64,000 nucleotides of DNA from the NCBI RefSeq assembly GCF_009908315.1, contig NZ_JAAATW010000001.1:496001-560000 (forward strand). Reading direction: 5' to 3'. This DNA is from Paragemmobacter ruber. Lineage in GTDB: Bacteria; Pseudomonadota; Alphaproteobacteria; Rhodobacterales; Rhodobacteraceae. Both the position numbers and the translations under genes were made by a program. Below, piece by piece: positions 44,448 to 62,691 of this stretch; within the stretch, counting starts at the first letter, position 1, and each line of letters begins with the position of its first letter. The notes below the pieces were generated by a model, which had not been told where the DNA came from, did not search any database, and saw nothing but the letters and a program-made list of their open reading frames with translations.

Positions 44448-45281
44448 GTGCCCGATCTTGTTCGTATCCGGCAGTCCGCTGCCCCAAAACCCATCCGGCT
44501 TGCGCTTCACCTGTTCGATCTTGCCGCCTATGAGGTGCTGTACAGGTTTTCGCCCGTGCGGCGGAAACGGTTCTTCAACGGGGGCTATCTGCCCCTCTCC
44601 CCCGATCTGCAGAGCGTGCCGGAACTGCAGGACGAGGCGGCGGCCGCGATGATGTATCACCTGCTGCTCTGCGACATGGTGGCGGGGCTGTCGCCCGATC
44701 CCGAGGCGATCCTTGATGTCGGATGCGGGCAGGGCGGGGGCCTTCTCTATGCGCATCGGCTGTTCCCGAATGCGCGGCTGCTGGGCACCGATCGCAATGG
44801 CACGGCCACCCGCATGGCGCGCCGTCTTCTGGATCGCACGGGCCTCGCCACCCTGCGCAAGGGCGGGGGCGATACCATCGCCTTCGCCGACCGCACGGCG
44901 GATTTTGTGCTCAGCGTCGGGGCGCCCACCTATTTCGGCCTGTCCCGCTATGTGGCCGAAGCGGCCCGCGTCTGCCGCCCCGGCGGGATCATCGCCTTTT
45001 CGGGCGGCTACAGGCAGGGCGATCACGCGGTGATCGAGGCCGAGTCGCGCGCTGCTGCACGGGATCAGGGCCTGCTGTTTCATGCCTATGCCAACATCAC
45101 ACCGCACACCTTTGCCGCGCTTGAGGCCGACATCCCGCGCCGCGCCGCCGAACTGGCCCGCGTGCCTTGGCCGTTCCGCGCCTATGGCTGGAAATGGGCC
45201 GACATGCCGGGCAGCGCGGAATACGAGGAATATGCCACAGGCCGCCGCGCGGATTTCGCCTGCGTCTTGCGCAAACCCTGA
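44448..45281 (+). CDS. Class I SAM-dependent methyltransferase
   Basis: A 277-residue protein. The SAM motif I is ILDVGCGQGGGLLYAH near residue 85, with LLGTDRNGTA as the acidic strand-2 end and AADFVLSVGAP-like motif (ADFVLSVGAPTYFGL) as motif II. The N-terminus LALHLFDLAAYEVLYRF is family-specific. No ATG fits; the GTG at 44448 is the best start. It lies between the KpsS-like and glycosyltransferase genes on the other strand, so it may methylate the lipid or glycan of the capsule. The acceptor is unknown. Confidence 0.75.
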   Translation: MPDLVRIRQSAAPKPIRLALHLFDLAAYEVLYRFSPVRRKRFFNGGYLPLSPDLQSVPELQDEAAAAMMYHLLLCDMVAGLSPDPEAILDVGCGQGGGLLYAHRLFPNARLLGTDRNGTATRMARRLLDRTGLATLRKGGGDTIAFADRTADFVLSVGAPTYFGLSRYVAEAARVCRPGGIIAFSGGYRQGDHAVIEAESRAAARDQGLLFHAYANITPHTFAALEADIPRRAAELARVPWPFRAYGWKWADMPGSAEYEEYATGRRADFACVLRKP

Positions 45282-45290
45282 CGTCACCGC

Positions 45291-47225
45291 CTAGTCCCTT
45301 GCCTGCCCGAATTCGCGCGCCCAATGCGCGCGATCCCGCAACGCGGGAAGCCGGTCGCGCCAACGCATCGCGGCCTTCTGCCGCGTCAGCCCGTAGCGCA
45401 GCGAAAGCCAAAGCGCGCGCGCCAGAAGGCGCAGGAACAGACCCTTGCGCGGAAGCATCACAAGACAGCGCCGCCCCTGCGGCTCCAGCGCCAGAAGATA
45501 GGGCGCGCCTCCGATGGCGAGCGGATCGGGGGCGCCGATCTGCAGCGTCGTGATCTGCCGGGGGCGCAGCCCGATCAGGATCCGCAGCGTCAGCAGGGCG
45601 GCCGATGTCACGGTCAGCGGGCGCGACGCGGCCACGTCATAGGCCGCGGGCTGGCGCATCCCCGCCACCTCGGGAACCTGCCGCCGATCCGGCATCGGCA
45701 AGACCTTCATCGCTTCGACCAGACGGCGGTGACGGGCGGCCCCGTTCGGGCGCAAGGCCACATCCGGGCCGCCAAGGAAATCGGCCACCGCCATGAGGCT
45801 GGCCGCAGCGGCACGGTAGCGGTGGACCAGCAGGTGGTGCATGGCCCAGCCCAGAACCTGCAACGCCCCGGGCGGCGGCGCCAGGGACGGATGTGAGGCG
45901 GCGGTGATCAGACCGTTGCGCAGATCGTAATACTGCACCATGCCCACATGCTTGTACCGCACCGAGGCATGCCAGACCCCCAGCCCGGGCAGCGGCACTG
46001 TCGGCACGCCTGACGCGCGCAGCCGCAGGCCATACTCGATGTCGTCGCCCCGCAGGAAGATGGGCGTCGGCAAACCACAGGCGCGTATCGCCCGCAGGGG
46101 GATCAGGCTGAACCACCACCCGTTGTAATGCACGTCGGGACAGCGGTCCCAGAATTGCAGCGCCCCGGGCGCTGCCAGATCAAGATGGCTTCCCTCCATC
46201 CGGGGCAGCCAGTTTTCACCCAGCCGCCCCCATGCCTCTTGCAGGCGGGCCGGGCATTCCAGCTCGATCGCCTGCCCGCCCACCACCACATCGGCGGCGG
46301 CATGGGCCGCAAAGGCCGCCGCACGCGCGATGATGCGCGGGTCCAACAGGATATCGTCATCCATCAGCAGCAGATGCGTGGGCGCCTCTGGGGCCTCCAT
46401 CGCCTCGACCATGGCGCGGGCAAAGCCGCCGCAGCCGCCCAGATTGGGTTGCTCCACGACGTGGAACAAGGGGCGGTCCAGCAAGGTGCGAAGGCCCTCG
46501 CCGCGGAAGGCGGGTCCGTGGTTCACGACATGGACGCGCAGGAGATCGGGCATCACGGTCGCCAGATCGGCCAGCGCGCGCGCGGTCGGTTCAAACAGCG
46601 CCTCGCGGTCATGGGTCACGATCCCCACGGCCAGCCGCACCTCGCGCGCGGGCGGGCGGTCAGAGACAAAGGCGATCTCGGCAATCCGCGCTTCCGACAG
46701 CGCTTCGACAGACAGGCTCAGCCTTACGGCATCGGCGGCCATCGCCTCGTCCCAGATCCAGCGGAGGCTCACCTCCACGTCGCCGGGATGATCCCAGACG
46801 GCAAGCCGCCGCGTCCGCCCGCCGGGAAAATGACCCACCAGCCGCAACCGCAGCGCCCCGTTCGCCCGGCAGGTGATGCCCACGCGCCGGATCCCCGCCC
46901 GCGCCCGCCAGAAATCGAGGAAGAAGGCGTTGAAAAAGGTATCACCCTCCAACCGTCCGCCCGGCGAAAGGTGCAGGCTGCCCCGTCGCCCAAGGCGGAC
47001 GCGGCTGGACGGGCCGAGATACAGCTCATTCGGCGCGCCCGGCATGGGGGAAAGCAGCACCTGCAGCCGATGCAGGCCCGCACGCCGGGCCGTCGATGGC
47101 GTTGGCGTGGCCAGGGGATCGGCAAACGTGCCCCTCGCTGACCCGGTATCGCGCAGAAGGTCTGCCTGATCGTCGGGATCCAGCAGCATCGGATGGTACA
47201 GTTCGCCCGAGGCATCCGCCATCAT
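45291..47225 (-). CDS. GlfT2-like galactofuranosyltransferase
   Basis: A 644-residue three-part glycosyltransferase. The N-terminal beta domain carries TFFNAFFLDFWRARAG, the counterpart of the GlfT2 NTYFNAF segment. The central GT-A domain has AVGIVTHDREALFEPTARAL, QPNLGGCGGFARAMVEAM and the metal motif LLLMDDDILLD near residue 288, then GDDIEYGLR. The C-terminal helical domain completes the family length. Mycobacterial GlfT2 polymerises galactofuranose from UDP-Galf. UDP-galactopyranose mutase is encoded 14 kb away in the same locus, which supports this donor. It is downstream of the PLP enzyme on the same strand. Confidence 0.83.
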   Translation of the reverse strand: MMADASGELYHPMLLDPDDQADLLRDTGSARGTFADPLATPTPSTARRAGLHRLQVLLSPMPGAPNELYLGPSSRVRLGRRGSLHLSPGGRLEGDTFFNAFFLDFWRARAGIRRVGITCRANGALRLRLVGHFPGGRTRRLAVWDHPGDVEVSLRWIWDEAMAADAVRLSLSVEALSEARIAEIAFVSDRPPAREVRLAVGIVTHDREALFEPTARALADLATVMPDLLRVHVVNHGPAFRGEGLRTLLDRPLFHVVEQPNLGGCGGFARAMVEAMEAPEAPTHLLLMDDDILLDPRIIARAAAFAAHAAADVVVGGQAIELECPARLQEAWGRLGENWLPRMEGSHLDLAAPGALQFWDRCPDVHYNGWWFSLIPLRAIRACGLPTPIFLRGDDIEYGLRLRASGVPTVPLPGLGVWHASVRYKHVGMVQYYDLRNGLITAASHPSLAPPPGALQVLGWAMHHLLVHRYRAAAASLMAVADFLGGPDVALRPNGAARHRRLVEAMKVLPMPDRRQVPEVAGMRQPAAYDVAASRPLTVTSAALLTLRILIGLRPRQITTLQIGAPDPLAIGGAPYLLALEPQGRRCLVMLPRKGLFLRLLARALWLSLRYGLTRQKAAMRWRDRLPALRDRAHWAREFGQARD

Positions 47226-47313
47226 TACCCCCTGCCCCCTGTGGTACAGGCCAGCGGCCCGTGCCTCCGCACCGGGTTGGCCACAGGGCGGCGCAGGTAG
47301 CAGGCCGCGCCCA

Positions 47314-48651
47314 TCACAAAGCCACCAATCCGGGCGGCAGCGCCGTGCCAAAGCCTTCCCGGCGCAGCTGTTCCAGCGCATCCGCCGTAAGGGCGACCGC
47401 CTGCCGGATGTCTGCCTCGCTGTGCAGGGCGCTCAGAAAAAAGCGCAGACGTGCGGCCCGCATTGGCACGGCAGGGAACATGACCGGCATCACATTCACC
47501 CCGCGTTGCAGCAGCCGTTCCGACAGTTTGGCCGCAAGCAGCGTGTCGCCCACCATCACCGGGACGATGCCGAACGGCCCGGCATTGCCCGTATCCAGCC
47601 CGGCTTCGCGTGCGGCGGTCAGGAAGAGGGCGGCGTTTTCCTGCAGGCGCGTGGCGCGACCGGGTTCCACAGCCAGCAGGTCCAGCGCGCACAGCGCCGC
47701 CGCTGCAAGCGCCGGGGCAAGCGCGACCGAATAGACAAACCCCGACGCATGGCCGCGCAGCACATCAATTAGCGCCTGAGTGCCCGCAATATAGCCCCCG
47801 GTCGCGGCAAGGGTCTTTGACAGGGTCCCCATCCAGATGTCGACCTTGCCTCGATCAATCCCCTCCAGCGCGAAACTGCCCACCCCTCCCGGCCCGACAC
47901 AGCCCAGCGCGTGCGCCTCATCCACCATGAGCCAGCAGCCGAAGCGTTCCTTCAGCGCGATCAGCGCGCCAAGGGGCGGCGCATCGCCATCCATGGAGAA
48001 CAGCCCTTCGGTCACGATCAGCGCATGGCGATACTGCGCCCGGTTCTCGATCAGCAACGCCTCGAGCGCGGCCATGTCGTTATGGGCAAAGGCCCGCCGC
48101 GCCGCACCCGAAAGCTTCATGCCGATCTGGATCGAGTTGTGGCAGAGCGTGTCATAAAGGATCAGATCGCCCTCGCCCATCAGATGACCGATGGTCGAGA
48201 CATTGGTGGAATGGCCACTGACAAAGGTCAGCGCGGCGGCAGCGCCATAGTGGCGCGCCAGCGCCGCCTCGAGCGCGTCATGCACCGGGCGGCAGCCCGC
48301 CACCAGCCGACTGCCCGAGGGCGAGGTGCCGTAGCGGTCGATCGCCGCCTTCGCGGCCTCGGCCACGCGGGGATCGGCGTTCAGCCCGCAATAATCATAG
48401 GACGCGAAATTGAGCAGATCGCGCCCGTCGATCCGGGTCTGCGCCGCGGCATGCCCGTCATGCAGCCGGAAAAAGGGGTTCTCCACCCCGATCAGCGCCC
48501 CGGCGCGGCGCATCCGTTCCATCTCCTGATGTTCGGGAAGCTGGGAAAAGGACGGGGCGGGTGCGGCGTTCGCCTCTCCCCGCCGCGTCTGGCGGCGCAG
48601 GGCCGCCGCACGCGCTGCGGCAACGGCGTCCGATCGTGCGTCGCCCGTCAT
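47314..48651 (-). CDS. Alpha-oxoamine synthase (KBL/SPT-like, RkpG-like)
   Basis: A 445-residue fold-type I PLP enzyme of the family of serine palmitoyltransferase, AONS and ALAS. The PLP lysine lies in MGTLSKTLAATGGYIAG near residue 278. Other landmarks are FASYDYCGLNADPRV, the aromatic-stacking histidine in FVSGHSTNVSTIG, and LMVDEAHALGCVG. The ATG overlaps the polyketide synthase stop (ATGA), so the two are made together. The synthase has no thioesterase, so this enzyme probably releases the chain by decarboxylative condensation with an amino acid, giving a 2-amino-3-ketone. Rhizobial RkpG is the nearest analogue I know. Confidence 0.87.
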   Translation of the reverse strand: MTGDARSDAVAAARAAALRRQTRRGEANAAPAPSFSQLPEHQEMERMRRAGALIGVENPFFRLHDGHAAAQTRIDGRDLLNFASYDYCGLNADPRVAEAAKAAIDRYGTSPSGSRLVAGCRPVHDALEAALARHYGAAAALTFVSGHSTNVSTIGHLMGEGDLILYDTLCHNSIQIGMKLSGAARRAFAHNDMAALEALLIENRAQYRHALIVTEGLFSMDGDAPPLGALIALKERFGCWLMVDEAHALGCVGPGGVGSFALEGIDRGKVDIWMGTLSKTLAATGGYIAGTQALIDVLRGHASGFVYSVALAPALAAAALCALDLLAVEPGRATRLQENAALFLTAAREAGLDTGNAGPFGIVPVMVGDTLLAAKLSERLLQRGVNVMPVMFPAVPMRAARLRFFLSALHSEADIRQAVALTADALEQLRREGFGTALPPGLVAL

Positions 48652-51600
48652 TCCGCCGCCTCCGCCGGGGCGGCGACATGGTCTTGCGCCACCGACAGGT
48701 GCTGGACGGCCAGACGCACCTCTTCGGTCGCCTCCGCAGGTGCGGCCCCCGCTCCGCCATGCAGGTGTCGCACGATGCGCGCGGCAATCTCCTCGATGCT
48801 CAGCGCATCGGACACAAGGCTGACGGGCACGTCGTCACCCAGCGACTCCTGCAGGGTCAGGCCAAGCTCCACCCCCATCAGCGAGTCGATCCCAAGATCC
48901 GCGACAGGACGCCCCGGAACGACGGCCTTTTCGGGAACCTGCAGGATATGGGCAATCCGGCCCACCAGCCATGCGGTCAGCCGCGCCTCGGCACGGTCCT
49001 GCGTCATCGCGACAAGCGCCGCGCGCAAGTCATCGTCGGATGCCTCACCCTCGGCCCGTTTGCCCAAGGCTTTCAACAGGCCAAAGGCCGGTTCGGCGAT
49101 GGTGCGCAGTGTGACGGACACCGCGTTCCAGCCCATGGGCGAGATATGGACCACCGGATCCACCGTCAGGCCCAGCGCCAGCAGGCGATCCAGCGCCCGC
49201 GTCACCTGAACCCCGGTGAAATCCAGCCCGCCCGACATGCGGCGAACCAGGGCGGCCGTGTCGCGGTCGCGCGTCAGATAACCCACATCGGAGATCGCCC
49301 CCCAGCCCACGGCCAGTGCCGGCAGGCCAGCCGCACGCCGTTGCCGGGCGATGCCCTCCAGATAGCCGTTCGCGGCGACATAGGCGGATTGACCGTGGTT
49401 CCCGATCAACGTGGCCATGGACGAGAACAGGACAAAGTAATCCAGCCCATCCTGCCGCGTCAGCCGGTCAAGATGCGCAGCACCGGCCACCTTGGCGGGC
49501 AGAACACGCGCCAGCACGGCATCTGTCAGCGCCGCCATCGGCATGTCTTCCAACACCATCGCGGAATGGATCACGCCCGCCAGCGGGCGCAGGTCTGCCA
49601 AGGCGGCCTCCAACGCGGCGGGATCGGCCACGTCGCAAGCCACGGCCCAGACCTCTGCCCCCTTGTTGCGCCACCGCCGGAAAGCGGCCTCTGCCTCGGG
49701 CGACAGATCCGCGCGGCGGCCCATCAGGGCCACGCGACGCGCCCCGCCCTCGATCAGCCACTCCGCCACTTCCAGACCAAGGCCGCCCAAGCCGCCAATC
49801 ACCAGATGCGTCCGCTCGGGGCAGAGCGGTGCGCGCCCGGTCGGGATATCCTGCATTTGAACCGCCTCGGGCGCGGGCGGGGTGATCAGCACCTTGCCCA
49901 CATGCCCGGATTTCTGCATCAGGCGGAAGGCCGACACCGCCTCGGCCGGGCCGAAGGCGCGGTAGGGCAAGGGGCGCAGGGCGCCACTGGCGAAGGCGTC
50001 CATCACCTCGGCAAAGACCCGCGCGGCCAGATCCGGGCGCGCGGCCATGACCTGATCCACGTCGATGCCGTGATAGCTGATATTCTCCTTCAGCGGCCGC
50101 ATCCCCATGGCGGTGTTGCCATAGAAATCCTGCTTGCCCAGTTCGAGGAACCGCCCGAAGGGCGCAAGGCAGGCAAGGCTGCGCTCCATCGCGGCACCTG
50201 CCAGCCCGTTCAGCACGGCATCCACGCCGCGCCCCCCGGTCAGTTCGCATACCTCATCCGCAAAGCCCAGCGATCGGCTGTCGAGGACATGCTCCACCCC
50301 TTCGGCCCGCAAGAGCGACCGCTTCACCCCGGAACCTGCCGTCGCGATTACGCGCAGGCCCAGATGCCGGGCGATCTGGATCGCGGCCAGGCCGACACCG
50401 CCCGCCCCACCATGGATCAGCACCCATTCCCCGGCCCGCAGATTGCCCAGCGTCACCAGCGCGTACCACGCGGTGAAGAACGCAACCGGCACGGTCGCCG
50501 CCGCCTCGGCCTGCATCCCATCAGGCAGGCGCGCGGCAATATCCGCGCGCACCACGACATGCGAGGCAAAGGAAGACGGGCCAAAGGTCAGGACCGTGTC
50601 ACCGACAGCAAGGCCTTCCACACCGGGGCCGCAGCGCGAGACCACGCCCGCACATTCGATGCCGATGGTCGGCCCGGCAAAGCCGCGCTCCAGCGCCTCT
50701 TCCGGCAGAAGGCCCATGGTCCACATCACGTCGCGGTAGTTCAGCCCCGTCGCGGTGACGGTGACCTCTACCTCGCCCGGTCCCGGCTCCTGCCGCGGCA
50801 CCACCTCCCAGCGCAGGTCATCCAGTCCGCCCACCGCAGGCGCGACGAGCACCGCCCGCATCGGCGCAGGGGGTGGCAAGGAACCCTGCGTCACACCCTG
50901 CGTGACGCGCAGCACCGCGTCCCCATCGGCCCGCAGGATGACCTCGGTTTCCGCTGACTGAGCTGCCACCCGCGCGGCGATGCGGTCCCCCACCTCTTGC
51001 GCGGCTAGGGCGGGATCCGGGTCCACCCGCAACAGGGAAAGTGTCGGATTTTCGTTCGCCGCCGAACGGAGAAACGCCCAAAGCGCCGTCTGCGCCGGGT
51101 CATGACTTGCGTCCGATCGCCCGGTCCCCCCCGAGACGACACAGATCAACTGCCCATCCCGTGCAGTGGTCTGCGCCACCACATCACGCAGCATCAGGAT
51201 CCGCCGGGACAGCATGGCCACGGCATCCTCTCCTGTCGCTACCGGCGGGAAGGTGCAGATCACCCTGCCCTGCCCGTCTTGGACCACCCGATCCTGCCGC
51301 TGCACCCAACTGTCGGCGATCAGGGCGGCCAGATCTGGCAGCGCGTCAGACGCCGCGCGCGCCGCATTTTCCGGCGCGGCCAGGATCAGCACATTGGCCA
51401 AGCCGCAGCCATCGGGAAGGGCGTCGGCCTGCAGCGCGCCAAGACCCAGCCGGGCCACCATATCGGCCCACTCTTCCCGCGCCCACCGCCGCGAGATGGG
51501 ACCATCCGGCATATGGAACGACGTGAACCAATCCGGGTCGCTCCCATACACCAGATCGGCGAAATCGGATGGCCCGGGCTCCAAAGCGACAAGCCGCCCT

Positions 51601-54600
51601 GCGGGCGCAAGCGCCGAGTGCAGCAGGGTAAGCAAGGCTTCGGGGCGGGCCGCGGCTCCGATCATGCCATCCGACAGGATCAGGTCGAACGGGCCAGCCG
51701 CGCGCATGGCATCAGGCTCTGCCGCGATGCTGCGCACGCGGTCTTGCGCCAGCACGCTGCCCTCTGACGCGCCGGACAGGGCAATCTCGGCGAATGTCGC
51801 GCGATCCGGCCCGATGGCCGCCAGCAGCGCGGGAAGCAGGCGGGCAGTACTGTCCGTGACCTCTGCGATCCGGACCATACGCCCCGCGGGCAGGGCCGCA
51901 ACCACATCGCATACAGCCTGCACCATGGCCAGCCGCCGTCTGCGGCAGTAGACCGACCCCTCTTCCAGATTTTCGATCGCGGCACGCCCGAAGATGCCTT
52001 CCGGCAAAGGCAGGGCGTCCGCATCCGTGCGCGCCAGCAGGGGCAGTTGGGCCACAAGATGCGCCAGAACGGCCCGTTCAGGCCCGAGTTCAGGCCCTTT
52101 CTCGCCCAGCCACGCCATCAAGGGCGCGGGGTCTGCCGTCCGTGCTGCGTCGGTCAGGCGCCAGCCGCCATCGGTGGCGACCACCATGTCGGACCGCAGC
52201 GCGATGCCGATCAATCCGGCAAGATAGGGGCTTGCAGCGGGGGCGGGCAGAAACCCGCCCGGGGCCAGATCACGCAGCGTGACGGCTGCCAAGGCCTGCG
52301 CAACGGCCTCGACCAGAAAGATCCCGTCATCGTCGGGTCGAAGCTCGGGCTGTTCTGCCACCCGCTGCGGGGCAGGCGCAGCAAGCACACCTGCCGTTTC
52401 CGGCAGGGCGATCTGGCGAAACGCATGCTGGACAAGGCTCACCTCGCGGATCAGCCGAACCGCCTGAAAGCGCACCTGTTCCATCCGGGCGACCCTTTGC
52501 CCTTGCCGATTGAACAGGGTGAAATCGGCCAGCACCGACCGGCTGCCCTGTCGCAGCACGCGCAACCTGCCGCTCGCGATCTTTTCATGCGGCAGGTCCA
52601 GAACCATGCGCGCGATCCGCACCGGCACGAAGGCCAGCCCGCCCCGCTCGGCAAGGGTTCCCTCCAGCGCGGCGATCAGGCCATGGAACACCGCATCCGC
52701 ACCGCAGACATCGAGAAGCGTCGCATGGCCGGGCGTCAGTTCAAGCGCGTTTTCCCGCAGCAGAACCTCCACCTCGCCCGGTGCGATCACGCGCGCCCGT
52801 TCCACGAGCGCAAAGCCCGGCCCATAGTCCAGCCCGATGCGCCGCGCCGCGACATAGGTCCGCTCGCCCAGCAGATCGCGCGGATCGGCGGCAGGATCGG
52901 GCGCCGAGGCCATGGTCGCCTCCGCCTCGGCCGCCCGGAAGAACCGCGCCTGCACATGCAGGCGATAGCTGCCTTCGTCGCCCTTTGCACGTCCGCCGAT
53001 GGTCAGCCGTGACTGATCCGGCAGGGCACGCACCTGTACTTCGGTCAGCGATTGCCGCGCCAGCACAAGCGGCGCCAGAAGATCGACATCGCGCAGTTCC
53101 AGCCGGTGCGTGCCAAGCACCGATGACGCCGCCGCCAGCGCCATTTCCGTCAGCATCGTGCCGGGAACCACCACGCGCCCACCGACGCGATGATCGGCCA
53201 CGACAGGGCGCATGTGCGCATCCATATCGGAAAACCAGACGCGCGCATCCACCCCTTCCTCGCGGCCCAGTAAGGGATGCTGCACCGCGCTGTCGCCCAG
53301 CCGGTTCAGGATGCCCGGCGTGCGGTCGATGCGCACCTCTACCGGGTTCCACGGATAGGTGGGCAGATCTGCCCGCATCCCGCGCGGGCGCGGCAGAACC
53401 CGGTTGCCATCCAGCCGCAGGCCCTGGACCACGGCCCGCGCGAGGATCCGATCCACCGGGTTGATGCCGATCCCTTCATCGCTGCGATCCAGCGTCGGCA
53501 GGATCGCGCCCCCCTCCGCCGGAAGACATCCCGCCATATAGGCCTGCAGCACGGGTGATGGCCCGATCTCGACAAAGGCCTGCAAACCCATGTCGCGCAG
53601 CGTGGCCATGGCCGTGACAAAGGCCACCGGGCGGCGGACGTTCTCGCACCAATAGCCGCTGTCCAACGCCTCGCCCTCGGTCCTCTGCCCCGTGACAGAT
53701 GACACGAAGGGGATTTGCGCCCGACCGGGGGACAGGTCTGCAAGCCCCGCGCGCAGGGCAACCGCCACGCTGTCCACGGCGCTGCTGTGATAGGGATAGT
53801 CGATGGCCAGCCGCACCGCAGGCCAGCGCAGGCTGCGCCGGGCGTGGCGCAGGAAGGCGTCCAGCTCCCCGGCCTCGCCCACGACCGACACGCTGCGCGG
53901 GCTGTTTTCGGCCGCGATCTCAAGCCCACCGCCGAAACGGGCGATGGCCTCGGCCACATCGGGGGCCGGGGCCTGCACGGCGGCCATCGTCCCCCGCCCG
54001 CGCAGTTTCTGCAAAGCCGTGCTGCGGCGATGGATCACCCTCAGCGCCTGATCGAGCGTCAGCGCCCCGCTCGCACAGGCTGCTGCAACCTCACCCCCGG
54101 AATGGCCCATGACGGCGGCAGGGCGCAGCCCCCGCGCCCCAAGCGCCCAGACCAGCGCCATCTGATCGGCGAACAACAGCGGCTGGGCCACCTCGGCATC
54201 GCGCAACTGCTCGTCCAGGTCGCCCGCCCGCATCCGTGCGATGATCGACCAGCCCGCCACCGCCCGAAAGGCGCGGTCGATCCGCCGCAGACCCCGCGCA
54301 TAGTCGGGATCGCGCGCCATCGCCACCAGACCCATGCCAGAATACTGCGACCCGTTGCCGGAAAAGACGAACGCCGCAGGTGCATCGCGCAGCGCGCTGC
54401 TTGCGGTCACAAGGCGCGGGTCCCCGTTGCCGGACGCCCCGTCGACCAGTGCAGCCGCGGCCGCTTCGGGATCATCGCAGATCAGCGCCGCACGCTGGGG
54501 CAGACGCCCGCGATAGGCCGCAGCCTCGGCGCAAAGCTCGCGCAGGCCCGCGCGGCCCGCCTCGGCGGCGACGAGGGGCTGCCAGTTGCGCATGGACCGG

Positions 54601-55961
54601 CGCAGCGCCTCTTCTCCCGTCGCGCTTAAAAACAGGATCGGCGCATCCGTGCCGCCTGCCGTCAAGGGCGGGCGCACCGATGGCTGCACACTTTCAAGGA
54701 TGGCATGGGCATTGGCCCCGCCGAACCCGAAGGAGCTGACCCCGGCGAAAAGCGGGCCTTCTGCAAGCGTCACATGATCCTGCGCCACGGCGAGGTTCAG
54801 ATCGGCAAAGGGGATGCCCGGGTTCAGTTCGGATGCGTGCAAGGTGGCGGGGAACTGCCGCCGCTCCATCGCGACGAGCGCCTTCAGCAGGCCTGCCACA
54901 CCGGATGCAGGTTCCAGATGCCCGATGTTCGACTTCACCGATCCGATGGGCAGCGGGGCGGTGCGCGCCTGTCCGAGCACGCGGCCCAGCGCTGATGCCT
55001 CGACGGGATCACCCGCAAGCGTGCCGGTCCCATGCGCCTCGACAAAGGCAAGCGCGGCGGGATCAATACCGCAGCGATCGTAAACCCGCCGCAACAGCGC
55101 CGCCTGACCATCTGCCGACGGCAGGGCCACGTTCAGCGTGCGCCCGTCGGTGTTCGTCTCCACCCCCACGAGCGCGGCATAGGCCCGGCGCGGCCCCAGC
55201 GCGGCGGCCGTCTTGCGTTCCAGAACAAAGGCAACCGCGCCTTCGGCCCGCACATACCCATCCGCCCGCGCCGAAAACGGCTGGCAGCGCCCCACCGGCG
55301 ACAGCATCCGCGCGGCCGAGAAACCCACATAATGGATCGGGTCAAGGATGGCGTTCACGCCCGCCACGATCGCGGTGTCAACCTCGCCCCGCAGCAGGGC
55401 TTCTTCGGCCAGACGCAGCGCCACGATCGACGAGGAGCAGGCGGTATCCACCGTGATCGACGGGCCGCGCAGGTCCAGCGCATGCGAGATGCGGTTGGAG
55501 ACAAGCGCCAGCGTGTTGCCGGTCATCAGATAGCTGTCAGTAACCGCCGCATCCTGCGCCAGACGCGCCGCATGGGCCATGGCCGAACAGCCCACGAAGA
55601 CGCCCACATTCTTGCCTGCAAGCCCATCGGGCGGCAGACCGGCATCTTCCAGCGCCTCCCACGCGACCTGCAGAAGAAGGCGTTGCTGCGGGTCCATCTG
55701 CCCTGCCTCGCGCGGGGAAATGCCGAAGGCTGCCGAATCAAAGCACCACAGATCCGGAACGATCCCGGCCGCGAAGGTATAGGTCTTGCCTTTGGTTCCC
55801 GGCACGGGATGCAGAAAGTACTCATGCACCCAGCGGTCCCGCGGCACCTCGGTGACCGCATCGCCGCGCGCGAAAAGCAATTCTGAAAACTGCGCGACGT
55901 TTGCCGCACCGGGAAGGCGGCAGGAACGTCCGGTGATGAAAATCCGTCGGACCAAGGGCAC
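48648..55961 (-). CDS. Highly reducing type I polyketide synthase (KS-AT-DH-pseudoMT-ER-KR-ACP)
   Basis: A 2437-residue multidomain protein, start GTG. KS: Cys ~175 in TVDTACSSSIV, His in EAHGTGTLAGDP and in NIGHLEPASGVAG. AT: GHSGGEVAAA ~615, with DYPYHSS in place of the HAFH/YASH selectivity motif. DH: DHRVGGRVVVPG ~920. A methyltransferase-like region at ~1280-1500 has lost the SAM glycine motif (RIAEVTDSTARLL). ER: IHGGAGGVGLAA ~1850. KR: VIGGLGGLGLEVAE ~2053 with YVAANGYLE. ACP: DLGIDSLMGVE ~2358. There is no thioesterase or reductase end. One module with a full reducing loop suggests iterative synthesis of a saturated chain. It is divergent from the capsule exporter genes and resembles RkpA/WcbR of capsule loci. 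Confidence 0.95.
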   Translation of the reverse strand: MPLVRRIFITGRSCRLPGAANVAQFSELLFARGDAVTEVPRDRWVHEYFLHPVPGTKGKTYTFAAGIVPDLWCFDSAAFGISPREAGQMDPQQRLLLQVAWEALEDAGLPPDGLAGKNVGVFVGCSAMAHAARLAQDAAVTDSYLMTGNTLALVSNRISHALDLRGPSITVDTACSSSIVALRLAEEALLRGEVDTAIVAGVNAILDPIHYVGFSAARMLSPVGRCQPFSARADGYVRAEGAVAFVLERKTAAALGPRRAYAALVGVETNTDGRTLNVALPSADGQAALLRRVYDRCGIDPAALAFVEAHGTGTLAGDPVEASALGRVLGQARTAPLPIGSVKSNIGHLEPASGVAGLLKALVAMERRQFPATLHASELNPGIPFADLNLAVAQDHVTLAEGPLFAGVSSFGFGGANAHAILESVQPSVRPPLTAGGTDAPILFLSATGEEALRRSMRNWQPLVAAEAGRAGLRELCAEAAAYRGRLPQRAALICDDPEAAAAALVDGASGNGDPRLVTASSALRDAPAAFVFSGNGSQYSGMGLVAMARDPDYARGLRRIDRAFRAVAGWSIIARMRAGDLDEQLRDAEVAQPLLFADQMALVWALGARGLRPAAVMGHSGGEVAAACASGALTLDQALRVIHRRSTALQKLRGRGTMAAVQAPAPDVAEAIARFGGGLEIAAENSPRSVSVVGEAGELDAFLRHARRSLRWPAVRLAIDYPYHSSAVDSVAVALRAGLADLSPGRAQIPFVSSVTGQRTEGEALDSGYWCENVRRPVAFVTAMATLRDMGLQAFVEIGPSPVLQAYMAGCLPAEGGAILPTLDRSDEGIGINPVDRILARAVVQGLRLDGNRVLPRPRGMRADLPTYPWNPVEVRIDRTPGILNRLGDSAVQHPLLGREEGVDARVWFSDMDAHMRPVVADHRVGGRVVVPGTMLTEMALAAASSVLGTHRLELRDVDLLAPLVLARQSLTEVQVRALPDQSRLTIGGRAKGDEGSYRLHVQARFFRAAEAEATMASAPDPAADPRDLLGERTYVAARRIGLDYGPGFALVERARVIAPGEVEVLLRENALELTPGHATLLDVCGADAVFHGLIAALEGTLAERGGLAFVPVRIARMVLDLPHEKIASGRLRVLRQGSRSVLADFTLFNRQGQRVARMEQVRFQAVRLIREVSLVQHAFRQIALPETAGVLAAPAPQRVAEQPELRPDDDGIFLVEAVAQALAAVTLRDLAPGGFLPAPAASPYLAGLIGIALRSDMVVATDGGWRLTDAARTADPAPLMAWLGEKGPELGPERAVLAHLVAQLPLLARTDADALPLPEGIFGRAAIENLEEGSVYCRRRRLAMVQAVCDVVAALPAGRMVRIAEVTDSTARLLPALLAAIGPDRATFAEIALSGASEGSVLAQDRVRSIAAEPDAMRAAGPFDLILSDGMIGAAARPEALLTLLHSALAPAGRLVALEPGPSDFADLVYGSDPDWFTSFHMPDGPISRRWAREEWADMVARLGLGALQADALPDGCGLANVLILAAPENAARAASDALPDLAALIADSWVQRQDRVVQDGQGRVICTFPPVATGEDAVAMLSRRILMLRDVVAQTTARDGQLICVVSGGTGRSDASHDPAQTALWAFLRSAANENPTLSLLRVDPDPALAAQEVGDRIAARVAAQSAETEVILRADGDAVLRVTQGVTQGSLPPPAPMRAVLVAPAVGGLDDLRWEVVPRQEPGPGEVEVTVTATGLNYRDVMWTMGLLPEEALERGFAGPTIGIECAGVVSRCGPGVEGLAVGDTVLTFGPSSFASHVVVRADIAARLPDGMQAEAAATVPVAFFTAWYALVTLGNLRAGEWVLIHGGAGGVGLAAIQIARHLGLRVIATAGSGVKRSLLRAEGVEHVLDSRSLGFADEVCELTGGRGVDAVLNGLAGAAMERSLACLAPFGRFLELGKQDFYGNTAMGMRPLKENISYHGIDVDQVMAARPDLAARVFAEVMDAFASGALRPLPYRAFGPAEAVSAFRLMQKSGHVGKVLITPPAPEAVQMQDIPTGRAPLCPERTHLVIGGLGGLGLEVAEWLIEGGARRVALMGRRADLSPEAEAAFRRWRNKGAEVWAVACDVADPAALEAALADLRPLAGVIHSAMVLEDMPMAALTDAVLARVLPAKVAGAAHLDRLTRQDGLDYFVLFSSMATLIGNHGQSAYVAANGYLEGIARQRRAAGLPALAVGWGAISDVGYLTRDRDTAALVRRMSGGLDFTGVQVTRALDRLLALGLTVDPVVHISPMGWNAVSVTLRTIAEPAFGLLKALGKRAEGEASDDDLRAALVAMTQDRAEARLTAWLVGRIAHILQVPEKAVVPGRPVADLGIDSLMGVELGLTLQESLGDDVPVSLVSDALSIEEIAARIVRHLHGGAGAAPAEATEEVRLAVQHLSVAQDHVAAPAEAAE

Positions 55962-55968
55962 TCACATT

Positions 55969-56022
55969 TCCGGCACATGCCGGATCACTTGTTACAAGTC
56001 GCGGCCACCACAAGAACCGCGA
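55969..56022. promoter_or_regulatory. Three palindromes in the PKS/kpsM divergent promoter
   Basis: Three inverted repeats follow each other: TCCGGCA-CA-TGCCGGA (55969-55984), ACTTGT-T-ACAAGT (55987-55999), and TCGCGG-N12-CCGCGA (55999-56022). The first lies within 25 bases of the synthase start codon and includes its only ribosome-site-like bases; the second is a compact 13-base site. They could be regulator operators shared by both transcription units. Confidence 0.5.
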
Positions 56023-56157
56023 CAGAATTAGTTAGCGGAGGATAGCGCGCCGGGTCAATGTTTCGAGAAGCGGGTTGCTGATTTCTTCATTCTGTACCAA
56101 AGCTGTGCACAAGAGGCGCCCTTTTTTTTGCCGCCGTCGAGAGTGAGACAGTAACCA

Positions 56158-56976
56158 GTGACCGCCGGATCGCCCCTGTCCAGCGTTGAAACCGCGCGCA
56201 GCCCGTCCTTCCGCACCTGCCTGCGGATCCAGATCCGCACGATCTTTGCCCTGATCCTGCGCGAAACGCGCGTGCGCTATGGGCGGTCGCGCATGGGGTA
56301 TGCCTGGGCCTTCATCGAACCCATCCTGATCGTCGCCTTCATTTCGCTTGCCATATCGGGGATCATCGGGCGCCGCGCGCTTTCTTATGAATTTGGCATT
56401 TTCTACGCGCTCGGGGTGGTGAATTTTCAGTTCTTCCGCCACGCCTGCATCTTCATCGGCCAGTCGATCGAGGCGAATGCCCCGCTGTTCAACTATCCGG
56501 CGGTTCACGAAGTCGACGCCGCCCTTGCGCGGATCATCCTTGAAGCGGCGACTTATCTTGTCATCAACCTTGCGATCTTCCTTTTCATCGTCCTTGTCTT
56601 CGGGGCCACCTGGCCTGCCCATCCCGAAGCGATGATCATCGCCTTTCTGGGCCTTGCAATGCTGGCCTTTGGCGTGGGCCTGAACCTGGCCGCGCTGCAG
56701 CGCCGTTTCGAGATGACGTTGCAGATCTACGGCCTTGTGACGGCGCCGCTGCTGCTGCTTTCCGCGGTCATCTTCTCGCTTGAGAATGTCAGCCCCGAAT
56801 ATCGCGCGATCCTGATCTGGAACCCCGTCGTCCACGGGGTCGAAGGCGCACGCATGGGTTACTACACCAGTTACGGCGAAACCTATGTCAGCTTTGGCTA
56901 TCTGTACTTCGTCGGCCTGACTGCCGTGGCGCTGGGACTGTTCCAGGTGCTTCTCACGCGCCGGGGCATGCGATGA
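56158..56976 (+). CDS. kpsM: Capsule ABC exporter permease, KpsM-like
   Basis: A 272-residue ABC-2 type permease with six hydrophobic helices. The family segment RETRVRYGRSRMGYAWAFIE lies before TM1. It would form the inner-membrane channel for the lipid-linked polysaccharide with the KpsT-like ATPase. The start is a GTG at 56158 with a weak ribosome site; the end overlaps kpsT by ATGA. It is the first gene of the right-hand transcription unit, divergent from the polyketide synthase. Confidence 0.92.
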   Translation: MTAGSPLSSVETARSPSFRTCLRIQIRTIFALILRETRVRYGRSRMGYAWAFIEPILIVAFISLAISGIIGRRALSYEFGIFYALGVVNFQFFRHACIFIGQSIEANAPLFNYPAVHEVDAALARIILEAATYLVINLAIFLFIVLVFGATWPAHPEAMIIAFLGLAMLAFGVGLNLAALQRRFEMTLQIYGLVTAPLLLLSAVIFSLENVSPEYRAILIWNPVVHGVEGARMGYYTSYGETYVSFGYLYFVGLTAVALGLFQVLLTRRGMR

Positions 56977-57695
56977 TCCGGCTGATCGACGTGACCAAGA
57001 CCTATCGGATGCAGGGCGGCGGGCGGCGCTGGGTTCTCAACGGCGTCACGGTGACGCTGCCGCGTCGCAACATCGGGATCCTTGGCCGGAACGGGGCGGG
57101 AAAATCCACGCTTCTGCGCATGATCTCGGGCATCGTCGATCCCGACCGTGGCCGCATCCATCGCGATGTGCGGGTGTCATGGCCCATCGGTTTTCGCGGC
57201 AGCTTCCAGAAACAGCTCACCGGGTTGGAGAATGTGCGTTTTGTCGCGCGCCTCTACGGGATGGACGAACGCGAGGTGATCCGCAAGGTCGCCGACTTTG
57301 CCGAACTTGGCCCCTTCCTGTTGCAGCCCGTTCGCACCTATTCCTCGGGCATGAACGCGCGGCTTGCCTTCGGGCTGTCCATGGCCATTCCGTTCGACAC
57401 CTATCTTGTCGATGAATTGATGAGCGTGGGCGATGCGAACTTCAAGCAGAAGTCGCGCGACAGCTTCGAAGCGCTTCTCAAGGATTCCCGGATCATCATG
57501 GCCTCTCATTCCATGGGTGCGCTGCGCAGCTATTGCGACAGCGCGCTTCTGATCGACAACGGGCGCGTCATCTTCTTCGATGACCTGGCCGATGGCATCG
57601 AGGCCTATTTCGACATCAACGGAATCCCCAAGGACAAGCAGGGCCGACGGCACCGCCGGAACGCGGCGGAATGGAGTTTTGACAGTGACGACTGA
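56973..57695 (+). CDS. kpsT: Capsule ABC exporter ATP-binding protein, KpsT-like
   Basis: A 240-residue ATPase. Walker A is GILGRNGAGKSTLLRMI, the signature YSSGMNARLAFGLSMA, Walker B FDTYLVDELMSVGD, and the switch histidine is in IIMASHSMGALRSYC. It lacks the C-terminal carbohydrate-binding domain of Wzt proteins, so it is of the KpsT type, which exports by lipid recognition rather than a terminal sugar mark. It overlaps its neighbours on both sides. Confidence 0.94.
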   Translation: MIRLIDVTKTYRMQGGGRRWVLNGVTVTLPRRNIGILGRNGAGKSTLLRMISGIVDPDRGRIHRDVRVSWPIGFRGSFQKQLTGLENVRFVARLYGMDEREVIRKVADFAELGPFLLQPVRTYSSGMNARLAFGLSMAIPFDTYLVDELMSVGDANFKQKSRDSFEALLKDSRIIMASHSMGALRSYCDSALLIDNGRVIFFDDLADGIEAYFDINGIPKDKQGRRHRRNAAEWSFDSDD

Positions 57696-59301
57696 CGACA
57701 TGGACACGCCCTCGCCCTCGCGCCGCAAGACGGCTGGTCGCACCGGCCCGAAGACGGGCGGCGGGCCGCGCGCCACCGCAGCGCGCAGCAAAGGCGCCGG
57801 CAAGGGAACAGGAACCCCGCGGCGCGCCGCCGCGCAGGCCGCGACGGGGACAGCGGCCAAGCGGCCGCGATCTGCGGCGAAGGCTTCGGCAACCACCGCG
57901 TCCAAGGGACGCGCGCGTCCGCGCGCAGGCGCGGCGGAAGCCAGGGCATCAACCGGGCGTGTCCGGCGCGACGGACCCGCGCCATCGCCCGATGAGACCG
58001 GCCTCGCGCCAAGCCCCAATGCCGGCGAACCGCCGTCAGGCGCCATACCCCCCTTGTCCGCGCCCGATCCGGCACCGGCCGAACCCCAGCCCGAACCGAC
58101 CGCCCCCGCCCCACGGGACGCGGCGGTTTTCTCTGCCGGTCCGGTCGATCTGCTGACCGCAGAAGAAGAGCGGATGTTCAGCCGCACGACGCGCTGGTCT
58201 TTTGTGTTTCTGGTTCTGTTGCCGTTCATCGCCGCGGCGGGTTATCTCAGCTTCTTCGCGGCGGATCGCTATGCCGTGGAAGTGAAGTTCGCCGTCCGAT
58301 CGCCCACCGGCCTGCCTTCAACCGATCTCATCGGTATGGTGACGGGCGGCGCGGCCGCGACAACGCGGTCGGATGCCTATATGGTGGTGGAATACCTGCA
58401 AAGCCGCCAGTTCCTTGACGAGGTGTCAACCCGGCTCGATCTGCCCGTGATCTATGCCACCGATCTGGCCGATCCCCTGATGCGGCTTGAACGCGACGCC
58501 AGCAAGGAGGATCAGGTGGGCTACCTCGAGCGTGTCCTGCATCCCAGCTATGATGCGACCGCTGAGATCATCACGGTGGAGGCGCAGGCCTTCACCCCGA
58601 ATGATGCCCTCCGGGTCGCCTCTGCGGTGCTCGACACGGCCGAGGCGATGGTCAACCGCCTGTCCGAACAGGCCCGCAGCGACACCGTGCGTCTGGCCGA
58701 GGCCGAGCTTGCCCGCGCCGAGGCCGCCCTCAAGGCGCAGCGCGCCGCCATCGCGGCCTTCCGCGAAAACGAGCAGAGCATCGACCCCAACCAGACCGTC
58801 GCCACGCAGGAAAACGTCCTGCGCGATCTGCAAAGCCAACTGGCAACCGCGCAGGCGGAAATGCGCAGCCTGCGTGCCTTCCTGTCCTCAGACGCCCCGA
58901 GCATCCGCGTTCTGGGCAGCAGAATTGCCTCGATCGAAAACCAGATCGCGCAAGAGCGCGCCAACCTTGGGCGGGGCCGCACCGACGGCGCCGCGCCTGC
59001 AGCGCCCTCAGAGACCGATGCCGATACGCTGAACTCTGCCGTCTCGCTTTACGAAGCCCTAGCCGTGGATCTTGAATTTCACGAACGCACCTATGTTTCG
59101 GCTTTGTCATCGCTCGAGGCTGCGCGGCTGGAGGCGGACCGCCAGCAGCGCTATCTCGCCGCGGTCGTCCTGCCATCCCTGCCTGAGTCACCCACCTATC
59201 CCCGCGTTTTCCTGTCGCTCGCGCTGGTCTTTTCTGTCTGCTTCTTCACCTGGGGGATCGTGTCGATGTTCATCCATGTGATCCGCGAACACATGCGGTG
59301 A
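57685..59301 (+). CDS. kpsE: KpsE-like polysaccharide co-polymerase with basic N-terminal extension
   Basis: A 538-residue inner-membrane protein. TM1 lies near residue 172 (FVFLVLLPFIAAAGYLSFFA) and TM2 near 510 (VFLSLALVFSVCFFTWGIV). The periplasmic part between is coiled-coil rich (LAEAELARAEAALKAQRAAI, LRDLQSQLATAQAEMRSL), the PCP-2b/KpsE layout that links exporter to outer-membrane channel. The first ~140 residues are an unusual Ala/Lys/Arg/Pro-rich tail (AAKRPRSAAKASATTASKG), absent from E. coli KpsE. The start is a GTG inside the end of kpsT; an ATG at 57700 is an alternative. Its 3' end overlaps the convergent SDR gene by 114 bases. Confidence 0.87.
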   Translation: MTTDDMDTPSPSRRKTAGRTGPKTGGGPRATAARSKGAGKGTGTPRRAAAQAATGTAAKRPRSAAKASATTASKGRARPRAGAAEARASTGRVRRDGPAPSPDETGLAPSPNAGEPPSGAIPPLSAPDPAPAEPQPEPTAPAPRDAAVFSAGPVDLLTAEEERMFSRTTRWSFVFLVLLPFIAAAGYLSFFAADRYAVEVKFAVRSPTGLPSTDLIGMVTGGAAATTRSDAYMVVEYLQSRQFLDEVSTRLDLPVIYATDLADPLMRLERDASKEDQVGYLERVLHPSYDATAEIITVEAQAFTPNDALRVASAVLDTAEAMVNRLSEQARSDTVRLAEAELARAEAALKAQRAAIAAFRENEQSIDPNQTVATQENVLRDLQSQLATAQAEMRSLRAFLSSDAPSIRVLGSRIASIENQIAQERANLGRGRTDGAAPAAPSETDADTLNSAVSLYEALAVDLEFHERTYVSALSSLEAARLEADRQQRYLAAVVLPSLPESPTYPRVFLSLALVFSVCFFTWGIVSMFIHVIREHMR

Positions 59302-60123
59302 AGCGGCGCGCGAAGGCGGGGCGGGCAGCCGGTTCAGCAGCCGCCGCTCGCGCCATTGCAGAAAAGGCAACAGGATGGGTGCCAGCCACCACATCAGGCC
59401 GACCGGCAGGCTTGGCAAGACGACATAGCGGCCGCGATCCATCCCGCGGATCAGCGCTTGCGCCACCGCTGTGGCGGTCATCCGTGCCGCACCCCCCGCC
59501 ATGCGCGCGGTGACCGGCGACCGTTCGCGTTCCTCGCGCTGCAGCATGGGCGTGTCGGTATCCGGGGGCAGGCACAGCGTGACGGTGATGCCCTGCCCCG
59601 CCAGTTCCACGCGCAGGATATCGGCAAGGCCCCGCAGCGCGAATTTTGCCGGCGCATAGGCGGCATAGCCATAGATCCCGATGATTCCCCCCGCCGATCC
59701 AAGCAGGCCGATCGCCGCCCCGCGCGCCAGATGCGGGGTCACGGCGCGCACCACCCAGAGGCTGCCGAAATAGTTCACCTCCATCCCGCGCCGATGCGCC
59801 GCATCGGACAGGGCCATCGTCTCGCCCAGATCCACGGACCCGGTCGACAGCACCACACGCTGCGGCGCGCCAAGATCACGGATCGCGGCAGAGACCGCGC
59901 GCGTCACGGCCTCGGAATCGGACACGTCCACGGCATAAAGACCAACCACGGTTCCCGGCACCGTCTGTCGGATCAGGTCTGCCGCTGCTTGGAGCCTTGC
60001 GGCGTCGCGGGCGAAGAGGCCGATCCGGCCGTAGTCCTGTGCCAGAAGCATGGCAACCGCCAGCCCGATCCCGCTGGATCCGCCCGTGACAAAGGCGCAT
60101 CCCGCCCGAACCCTGTCGCCCAT
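59188..60123 (-). CDS. Short-chain dehydrogenase, 3-ketosphinganine reductase-like (RkpH-like)
   Basis: A 311-residue classical SDR. The NADPH loop is FVTGGSSGIGLAVAMLLA, the active site is Ser in GSAGGIIGIYGYAAYAPAKF with Tyr and Lys, and CLPPDTDTPMLQ carries the PPDTDTP motif typical of 3-ketodihydrosphingosine reductases. C-terminal hydrophobic residues (LPVGLMWWLAPILLPFLQW) suggest membrane association, also as in that family. It would reduce the 3-ketone made by the alpha-oxoamine synthase. The last ~38 codons run antisense through the end of the KpsE-like gene. An earlier ATG at 60171 exists. Confidence 0.85.
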   Translation of the reverse strand: MGDRVRAGCAFVTGGSSGIGLAVAMLLAQDYGRIGLFARDAARLQAAADLIRQTVPGTVVGLYAVDVSDSEAVTRAVSAAIRDLGAPQRVVLSTGSVDLGETMALSDAAHRRGMEVNYFGSLWVVRAVTPHLARGAAIGLLGSAGGIIGIYGYAAYAPAKFALRGLADILRVELAGQGITVTLCLPPDTDTPMLQREERERSPVTARMAGGAARMTATAVAQALIRGMDRGRYVVLPSLPVGLMWWLAPILLPFLQWRERRLLNRLPAPPSRAASPHVFADHMDEHRHDPPGEEADRKDQRERQENAGIGG

Positions 60124-60240: not shown

Positions 60241-61446
60241 ATGCCAGTCGCCCTGCACGGACAACCGCACGATCCAGATGCAGGGAATTGGCCGCGCGCC
60301 ACCCGCGCCGCTTTTGCAAACCCGTCCCGACGCAGCGCACTGCTGGGCATGGTGGCCCTGCTTGCCGCCTGCGGCTTGCCGCAGCAGGGGCCGCGCACGC
60401 CTGCCATCGTCGATGGCGCGACCGACAGCCGCTATGTGCTTATTGATGTCGACGCTGCCAGCGTGCAACGCCTCGGCCATCCCTTGCGCCGCGGCCTGCG
60501 CGGCCTTGGAACGACGGCGGCAAGCCAGCCTTCCCAATCGGTGGGCATTGGCGATGTCCTTGACATCCGCATCCTTGAGGCAGGCAGCGGCGGCCTCTTT
60601 GCGCAGGCCAATGGCGGCGCAGGCGGAACCGAATTTCCGGGGATCGTGGTCAATCGCGAAGGGCGCATCTCGTTGCCCTATGTGGGATCCATCGCCGTGT
60701 CGGGGCAAAGCCCGACCCAGATCGAAGATCGAATCGTCAATGCCCTGCGCGGCAAGGCGATCGAACCGCAGGCGCTGGTGCGTGTCGCCGCGACCGATGG
60801 CGACATGCTGACGCTTGCAGGGGATGTCACCAATCCCGGCCCCTTCAAGATCAGCCTGCGCGGCAGCCGCCTGTCCGAGGCGATCGCGGGCGCGGGCGGC
60901 AGCCGTTTTCCCGCGCATGAGACGCGGGTCTCCCTCATCCGGGACGGCCGACGCGCCGACGCGCAGCTTGACAACATCCTGCTGGACCCGCGCAGCGACA
61001 TCGCGATGCAGCGTGGCGATCTGGTGGTGCTCACGCATGAGCCGCCGCGCTACACGCTGACGGGTGCAGTGGGGCGCCCGGGCACCTTCACCCTGCCCGG
61101 CACCGAATATTCGGTGCTCGAGGCCGTCGCCGCCGCCGGCGGGCCAAATGACAACCGCGCCGATGCCTCTGGCGTCTATCTGTTCCGATACGAACCGCGC
61201 GATCGTCTTGCCACAGTCGGAAAATCCGCGCTCGCCACCGGTCAGGCCACCTCGGCCGGTGTGCCTACGGTCTATCGCTTCGACATGTCCAAACCGGACA
61301 TGCAGTTCTATGCGCGCAGTTTCCTCTTGGCCGATGGCGATGCGCTCTACGTCTCGAATGCGGGTTCGGTGCAGCTGGACAAGATCCTTGGCCTGTTCGA
61401 CCTCGGCCTGACGGCCGCGAACAGGGTGGAGAACGTCACCCAGTAA
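60241..61446 (+). CDS. kpsD: Outer-membrane polysaccharide export lipoprotein (KpsD/Wza-like)
   Basis: A 401-residue protein with a lipobox ending at Cys44 (VALLAACG). The Poly_export domain begins at QSVGIGDVLDIRILEAGSG and continues FPGIVVNREGRISLPYVGSI. Two SLBB-like repeats follow (LTLAGDVTNPGPFKISLRG and YTLTGAVGRPGTFTLPG). It forms the outer-membrane exit for the capsule. It starts 117 bases from the divergent SDR gene, so it probably has its own promoter. It is shorter than E. coli KpsD and close to Wza in size. Confidence 0.9.
   Translation: MPVALHGQPHDPDAGNWPRATRAAFANPSRRSALLGMVALLAACGLPQQGPRTPAIVDGATDSRYVLIDVDAASVQRLGHPLRRGLRGLGTTAASQPSQSVGIGDVLDIRILEAGSGGLFAQANGGAGGTEFPGIVVNREGRISLPYVGSIAVSGQSPTQIEDRIVNALRGKAIEPQALVRVAATDGDMLTLAGDVTNPGPFKISLRGSRLSEAIAGAGGSRFPAHETRVSLIRDGRRADAQLDNILLDPRSDIAMQRGDLVVLTHEPPRYTLTGAVGRPGTFTLPGTEYSVLEAVAAAGGPNDNRADASGVYLFRYEPRDRLATVGKSALATGQATSAGVPTVYRFDMSKPDMQFYARSFLLADGDALYVSNAGSVQLDKILGLFDLGLTAANRVENVTQ

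Positions 61447-61521: not shown

Positions 61522-62691
<1,170 letters not shown>

Follow-up and report, generated by a model that had tools for sequence, protein, structure and literature searches.

A polyketide-type sphingoid base pathway predicted in a capsule locus of Paragemmobacter ruber may supply the capsule lipid

A capsule locus of the alphaproteobacterium Paragemmobacter ruber encodes a polyketide synthase (PKS), an alpha-oxoamine synthase (AOS) and a short-chain dehydrogenase/reductase (SDR) which, judged by their sequences, probably make a sphingoid base. The locus lies in a 64,000-nucleotide stretch of contig NZ_JAAATW010000001.1 (positions 496,001 to 560,000), here called the window, whose own numbering is used below; the whole genome (G000; 3.96 Mb in 23 contigs) was searched. 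We lean towards the explanation that this base is the dedicated lipid acceptor of a capsule exported by KpsMTED. Taken separately, its role in anchoring or priming the window capsule, suggested by gene context, is a close call that we decide in its favour.

The PKS (48648..55961, minus strand) comprises 2437 residues and is of the iterative type, with KS, AT, DH, ER, KR and a single ACP domain identified by Pfam. A first-pass annotation, made from the DNA alone, had described a full reducing loop and no release domain, and Pfam bears this out: among matches at E 0.001 the protein contains no thioesterase or other release domain, and none follows the ACP, whose motif lies 81 residues from the C-terminal end. 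All active-site motifs are intact in an alignment with six relatives. Identity to five RkpA-, SgaA- and WcbR-like PKSs is 35.9-37.9% over ~2400 columns, and the RkpA and SgaA-like proteins have an identical single-module KS-AT-DH-ER-KR-ACP architecture. The PKS gene shares an ATGA stop/start overlap (48648..48651, minus strand) with the gene of the pyridoxal phosphate-dependent AOS (47314..48651, minus strand, 445 residues), as the annotation had also noted; its coordinates for PKS, AOS and SDR agree with Pfam and the sequence.

Fungal fumonisin biosynthesis had been proposed as the model for these steps. In fumonisin-type systems, the AOS releases the reduced polyketide of a highly reducing PKS. 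Fumonisin is not the nearest precedent, since the same logic was published in 2025 for a bacterium: Pseudomonas fluorescens MYb115 is reported to make C24-C28 sphinganines with the PKS SgaA and the AOS SgaB (PMC12134224). Purified PfSgaB is described there as almost exclusive for L-serine, strongly preferred over alanine and glycine, and SgaC, a nearby SDR with reported homology to eukaryotic 3-ketodihydrosphingosine reductases (KDSRs), was proposed as the pathway reductase. A KDSR homologue is present in a fungal fumonisin-type cluster (PMC12134224), as in the window. The fungal AOS SphA, the only one named in our PDB list, is a far weaker match (3.9e-27); the relationship is very distant or convergent.

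The window was compared with the sga genes through orthologues in genome G924, standing in for the MYb115 sequences. The published sgaAB primers match G924 at the expected places (sgaA start 22/22, sgaA end 22/23, sgaB end 18/21). The window PKS is 36.8% identical to the SgaA-like PKS of G924 over 2393 columns, and the PKS architecture and AOS clade of the sphinganine producer (PMC12134224), as represented by G924, are those of the window. The PKS and AOS are thus homologous to a demonstrated sphinganine pathway and the SDR groups with KDSR, so that a 2-amino-3-hydroxy long-chain base, as the first-pass annotation had suggested, is the best-supported predicted product.

The window AOS is 49.2% identical to RkpG of Sinorhizobium meliloti (named by gene order) and 47.7% to the SgaB-like AOS of G924. 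Identities to other families are lower: 38.0-41.2% for BioF, 37.1% for Kbl, 31.8-33.2% for 5-aminolevulinate synthase (ALAS) and 28.2-33.7% for canonical alphaproteobacterial serine palmitoyltransferase (SPT). It scores under every NCBIfam cut-off for SPT, BioF, Kbl and ALAS; against the curated SPT models it reaches 279.1 of 640, 263.4 of 500 and 191.6 of 670 bits. In a tree of 60 rows, which includes the G924 AOS and omits the long-branched L021, L022 and L105:890-2197, the window AOS, S. meliloti RkpG and the G924 AOS fall into one clade of 42 rows (support 98/88), separate from BioF, Kbl, ALAS and canonical alphaproteobacterial SPTs. The phylogeny thus places the enzyme in the RkpG-type clade, as the annotation had anticipated, and not in the canonical SPT family. 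The clade holds 37 PKS-paired AOSs and five Hyphomicrobium-type or other alphaproteobacterial AOSs with no PKS within the stretch examined, and joins AOSs from non-PKS clusters at 100/98; three of those clusters carry myo-inositol-1-phosphate synthase and a KDSR-type SDR. PKS-pairing requires three changes on the tree and has no single origin; the AOS of G273, counted as PKS-paired, lies outside the 42-row clade. By AOS, the closest named relatives are an uncultured Rhodobacteraceae metagenome-assembled genome (83%) and Tabrizicola sp. TH137 (76%). Three further members of the AOS family were found in the P. ruber genome, namely a Kbl and two ALAS.

The non-PKS clusters L051:7036-10951, L100:9324-13100 and L102:6430-10586 have the order AOS, DUF4833, myo-inositol-1-phosphate synthase, KDSR-type SDR, possibly an inositol-sphingolipid pathway in Alphaproteobacteria. 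At L014:9839-14408, an AOS 57% identical to that of the window is followed by a 381-residue protein and an NAD-dependent epimerase, an arrangement like that of a canonical sphingolipid cluster. We take the 381-residue protein to resemble a bacterial ceramide synthase; a possible CDP-alcohol phosphatidyltransferase is likewise presumed from translation.

The SDR gene (59188..60123, minus strand), RkpH-like, encodes a YxxxK motif and the sequence PPDTDTP, and lies 3.2 kb from the start of the PKS gene. The first-pass annotation had read PPDTDTP as the motif of 3-ketosphinganine reductases. The motif is present, but it is not diagnostic: TSC10, annotated in the PDB as 3-ketodihydrosphingosine reductase, carries a different sequence there, so the motif is not universal in KDSRs and by itself proves nothing. 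The family assignment was borne out by other means, namely profile search, reverse search and tree. P[PS]DTxT[PA] occurs in 12 of the 24 SDR genes read at these loci, among them the S. meliloti gene (assigned as RkpH from gene order), and a profile of these 12 places TSC10 at the top of 718 matched PDB sequences with 159.1 bits, followed by matches at 156.9 (summed over two domains) and 147.5. The reverse search is the stronger test: with TSC10 as query against the whole P. ruber genome, the window SDR scores 75.7 bits and the next of 33 scored candidates 32.4. In a tree of 30 rows, from which L098:13502-14338 (a generic SDR) and L120 (a paralogue without a usable frame) were left out, TSC10 nests in the 12-member clade of the window SDR (bootstrap/SH-aLRT 99/97 for the 13), with TSC10, itself long-branched, as the one KDSR of known activity and five other SDRs as outgroup. 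The 12 SDRs of a second kind, here called WcbP-type, stand apart (100/97), as do the five others; TSC10 is not among the best 60 of 691 PDB matches of the WcbP type, which was therefore not classed as KDSR, although it may have the activity, as proposed for SgaC (PMC12134224). The window enzyme is KDSR-like and predicted to reduce 3-ketosphinganine.

The three genes stand among capsule genes. KpsM-like permease (56158..56976) and KpsT-like ATPase (56973..57695) genes of an ABC transporter, both on the plus strand and recognised by Pfam and NCBIfam models, are followed by an open frame for a KpsE-like inner-membrane export protein (57580..59301, plus strand), which matches the BexC/CtrB/KpsE model over residues 207-571 with 242 bits, under the cut-off of 437.5. 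A KpsD-like outer-membrane export protein (60241..61446, plus strand) has Poly_export and SLBB domains by Pfam. Flanked by kpsE and kpsD, the SDR gene is encoded on the opposite strand, and the 3' ends of the SDR gene and kpsE overlap. A KpsS/RkpJ-like Capsule_synth protein (42955..44487, minus strand) matches PF05159 and scores 169 bits with the KpsS model, under its cut-off of 600; KpsS/RkpJ-like and export genes are thus present at the level of similarity, under curated NCBIfam cut-offs. Of the setting among kpsM/T/E/D/S genes proposed in the first-pass annotation, the M-, T-, E- and D-like genes were found as described, while the KpsS-like gene lies outside the interval it had covered. Gene order is largely kept in G104, G012, L012 and L011, the last two ending at the edge of a stretch or contig.

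The PKS-AOS pairing recurs well beyond P. ruber. Of 120 genomes sampled from the family, 9 gave an AOS match with an E value of 1e-70 or better, and of 398 from the phylum, 25 did so at 1e-75 or better, the window genome included. The reading covered all nine family loci and, in the phylum, all 26 places other than the window, in stretches of 10-84 kb (longer for PKS-paired loci); plasmid loci L037-L042, named loci L011-L022 and G100, which was picked up through its SDR, stand outside the count. Seven family and 20 phylum loci, together with G924 (chosen for its sga match), give 28 PKS-paired loci. Capsule genes lie near 19 of these, compared with none of the eight non-PKS AOS loci and none of three paralogue controls. 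Within 20 kb and without G924, the counts are 14/27 for PKS-paired loci and 0/11 for the others, the three controls included (Fisher p 0.0026, uncorrected for kinship). The co-occurrence of the gene set with kps genes, which the annotation had put forward as a check, is therefore seen repeatedly: PKS-AOS pairing recurs across Pseudomonadota beyond chance, and in many cases an SDR and capsule genes accompany it. The SDR is KDSR-type at six of the 28 loci and WcbP-type at 12, and the two never occur together; they therefore appear to fill one slot as alternatives. The non-PKS loci have four KDSR-type and two WcbP-type SDRs, and one of them (G095) probably ends inside its PKS; the controls have neither type. 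An LTA (lipoteichoic acid)-synthase-like protein is encoded at 8/28 PKS-paired loci.

Comparison with named systems sets the window apart as one variant among several. In the rkp-1 region of S. meliloti Ak57 (L037; RkpA, G, H, I and J named by gene order), the PKS, AOS, KDSR-type SDR and KpsS-like protein are homologous to those of the window, and PKS and AOS share a four-base overlap in both. The region differs in encoding RkpI, a Pfam Sulfatase protein without a homologue found in the P. ruber genome, and in its polymer genes, and kpsM, T, E and D stand among the lipid genes in the window. The wcb-type loci of Caballeronia and Paraburkholderia plasmids, as we presume these Burkholderiales genes to be named, have PKS, AOS, SDR and capsule genes in common with the window, and differ in a WcbP-type SDR, an LpxC-like deacetylase and an LTA-synthase-like protein, none of which was found in the window. 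The kinship with Rkp and Wcb noted in the first-pass annotation holds for PKS and AOS and, in the case of RkpH, for the SDR; the SDRs read at beta- and gammaproteobacterial loci are of the other, WcbP type. The LTA-synthase-like proteins of rkp-, wcb- and sga-type loci belong to Pfam Sulfatase, and owe the LTA name to record annotation. The window locus is a Rhodobacteraceae variant with a KDSR-type SDR, galactofuranose enzymes and no RkpI-like gene found in the genome.

The sga-type loci themselves carry capsule genes. In G924 (L146, L186), the PKS and AOS neighbour genes for a KpsS-like, two KpsC-like (PF05159), a Sulfatase/LTA-synthase-like and a GNAT protein and an SDR, with KpsM-, T-, E- and D-like, KpsF, KdsA and KdsB genes also present. 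Unlike the window, this locus has GNAT, LTA-synthase-like, KpsC-like, KpsF and KdsB genes, and its SDR is WcbP-type rather than KDSR-type. The genus inferred to be that of MYb115 was sampled with 398 genomes, 18 of which contain an AOS match with an E value of 1e-90 or better. Thirteen of these 18 loci were examined; in 11 the AOS shares 76% identity or more with that of L041, and in the other two 43-44%. Capsule genes occur within 20 kb at nine of the 11 L041-like loci and an SDR at eight. Counting from the AOS at L041, the fifth gene encodes the SDR, a position that matches the published sga locus tags if tags step by five (PMC12134224). The main text of that paper contains no occurrence of 'capsul', 'wcb', 'rkp' or 'polysaccharide'. 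The rkp-1 region is described in a 2016 review as providing a specific lipid carrier used in capsule secretion (PMC4881576), and the sga pathway and these rkp-type genes look like one module.

From these data a pathway can be outlined. The domains suggest that the PKS would build a fully reduced long acyl chain iteratively on its ACP and, having no release domain, hand it to the AOS. By homology to PfSgaB, the AOS would carry out a decarboxylative condensation of the chain with an amino acid, for which L-serine is the likeliest candidate, to give a 3-keto long-chain base, whose ketone the SDR, judged by its clade, would reduce to sphinganine. The sphingoid base, with or without a headgroup, may then be the lipid acceptor that starts or holds a galactofuranose-containing polymer, and the lipid-linked polymer would be exported by KpsMTED, both steps being suggested by gene context. 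E. coli KpsS is reported to transfer the first 3-deoxy-D-manno-octulosonic acid (Kdo) onto (lyso)phosphatidylglycerol (PMC10148158). In sga-, wcb- and rkp-type loci that have it, the LTA-synthase-like protein might add phosphoglycerol to give a sphingoid analogue of lyso-phosphatidylglycerol; sphinganine-phosphoglycerol would be the sphingoid counterpart of the KpsS acceptor. Masses of +154 Da in MYb115 were assigned as probable phosphoglycerol-sphingolipids (PMC12134224). More tentatively, and with doubt slightly prevailing, we propose that in rkp-, wcb- and sga-type loci across Pseudomonadota a sphingoid base made by the PKS takes the place of a glycerophospholipid as the foundation of the capsule. 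The LTA-synthase-like protein, where present, would then make sphinganine-phosphoglycerol as a lyso-phosphatidylglycerol mimic for a KpsS-type Kdo transferase, the P. fluorescens sphingolipids would be capsule intermediates or by-products, and the window would represent a variant found in Rhodobacteraceae, in which the KDSR is eukaryote-like and the headgroup a different one.

Several observations weigh against a sphingoid capsule lipid. No RkpI/WcbQ LTA-synthase-like protein is encoded in 84 kb around the window locus; the two Sulfatase matches in the genome do not match RkpI-type queries at 1e-6, and none of the seven PKS-paired family loci has such a protein in stretches of 19-84 kb. The AOS was rejected as a canonical SPT, lying below every SPT cut-off and outside the SPT (SPTalphaP) clade, and the AOSs closest to it from other types of locus are four of Hyphomicrobium, for which the stretches examined contained no PKS. 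Within the stretches examined, 10/28 PKS-paired loci have no SDR of either type and 9/28 no capsule gene. KpsC-like and KpsS-like genes also occur at a second capsule-type locus of the genome (L053:8092-14856; G000:C1 ~293-300 kb), ~245 kb from the PKS locus, which encodes a protein of 1151 residues whose C-terminal part is KpsS-like, together with a KpsD-like and a KpsC-like protein; an ordinary anchor is therefore possible. An ordinary phospholipid anchor, which the first-pass annotation had named as counter-evidence, is cited for the capsule of S. meliloti 1021, a strain with related rkp genes (PMC5539429, PMC7902896). Phosphoglycerol-sphingolipids count as phospholipids too, although the anchor assigned in that literature may well be a glycerol-based lipid. 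Finally, the MYb115 sphingolipids are described as free and treated as secondary metabolites with effects on the host (PMC12134224).

The foremost alternative is that sphinganines are free membrane lipids or secreted metabolites, sharing the locus for regulatory or transfer reasons, while ordinary (lyso)phosphatidylglycerol-Kdo carries the capsule. The free MYb115 lipids, the S. meliloti anchor, the separate KpsC- and KpsS-like genes and the PKS-paired loci lacking capsule genes all favour it. We nevertheless regard it as unlikely, given the recurrent linkage of PKS-AOS loci to KpsS-like, KpsC-like and export genes and the lipid carrier role credited to rkp-1. It is quite improbable that the AOS uses glycine, alanine or aminomalonate to give an amino-ketone or 1-deoxy-type base and no true sphinganine. 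The amino acid choice of the window AOS is not settled by sequence, the enzyme falls under all SPT model cut-offs, and sphingofungin synthesis is cited as needing aminomalonate (a reference in PMC12134224); however, PfSgaB strongly prefers L-serine, and a close orthologue of it represents the nearest family of known activity to the window AOS among those compared. Decay of the locus, or an unrelated polyketide as its product, is hardly credible: the missing RkpI-like gene is the one point found for it, against intact PKS motifs and a gene order largely kept in related loci.

The PKS-AOS sphinganine pathway type has been known since 2025 and the capsule genes since the 1990s; among the matches listed in the open-licence PMC literature, no statement equates the two. 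The link between sga and rkp gives the specific lipid carrier, described as needed for rhizobial capsule secretion (PMC4881576), a concrete and testable structure, and could explain the so far unidentified lipid of many such capsule clusters. It raises the prospect that sphingoid bases serve as capsule lipids even where sphingolipid synthesis is not known in the bacteria concerned and, if true, would add a further class of capsule lipid beside (lyso)phosphatidylglycerol and the Vi type; the P. fluorescens sphingolipids would gain a possible native role.

A family 2 glycosyltransferase (45291..47381, minus strand; Glyco_tranf_2_3), weakly GlfT-like (32.6 bits with the GlfT1 model, cut-off 330), probably serves the capsule polymer. 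UDP-galactopyranose mutase (Glf; 61525..62691, plus strand) was identified by Pfam, and another glycosyltransferase just past the window (L188:222-1799, G000:C1) is weakly GlfT2-like (20.8 bits, under the cut-off); a galactofuranan is a possible polymer. A conserved gene (44169-45281, plus strand), flanked by those for the glycosyltransferase and the KpsS-like protein, has a motif that we take to be S-adenosylmethionine-methyltransferase-like. The open reading frame at 44361-45287 on the minus strand was rejected as spurious, since the frame on the opposite strand is the conserved one. Beside the Glf gene, an open reading frame (62619-63932, plus strand) has no Pfam match and contains an in-frame HHKTGTT, presumably similar to a sulfotransferase P-loop.

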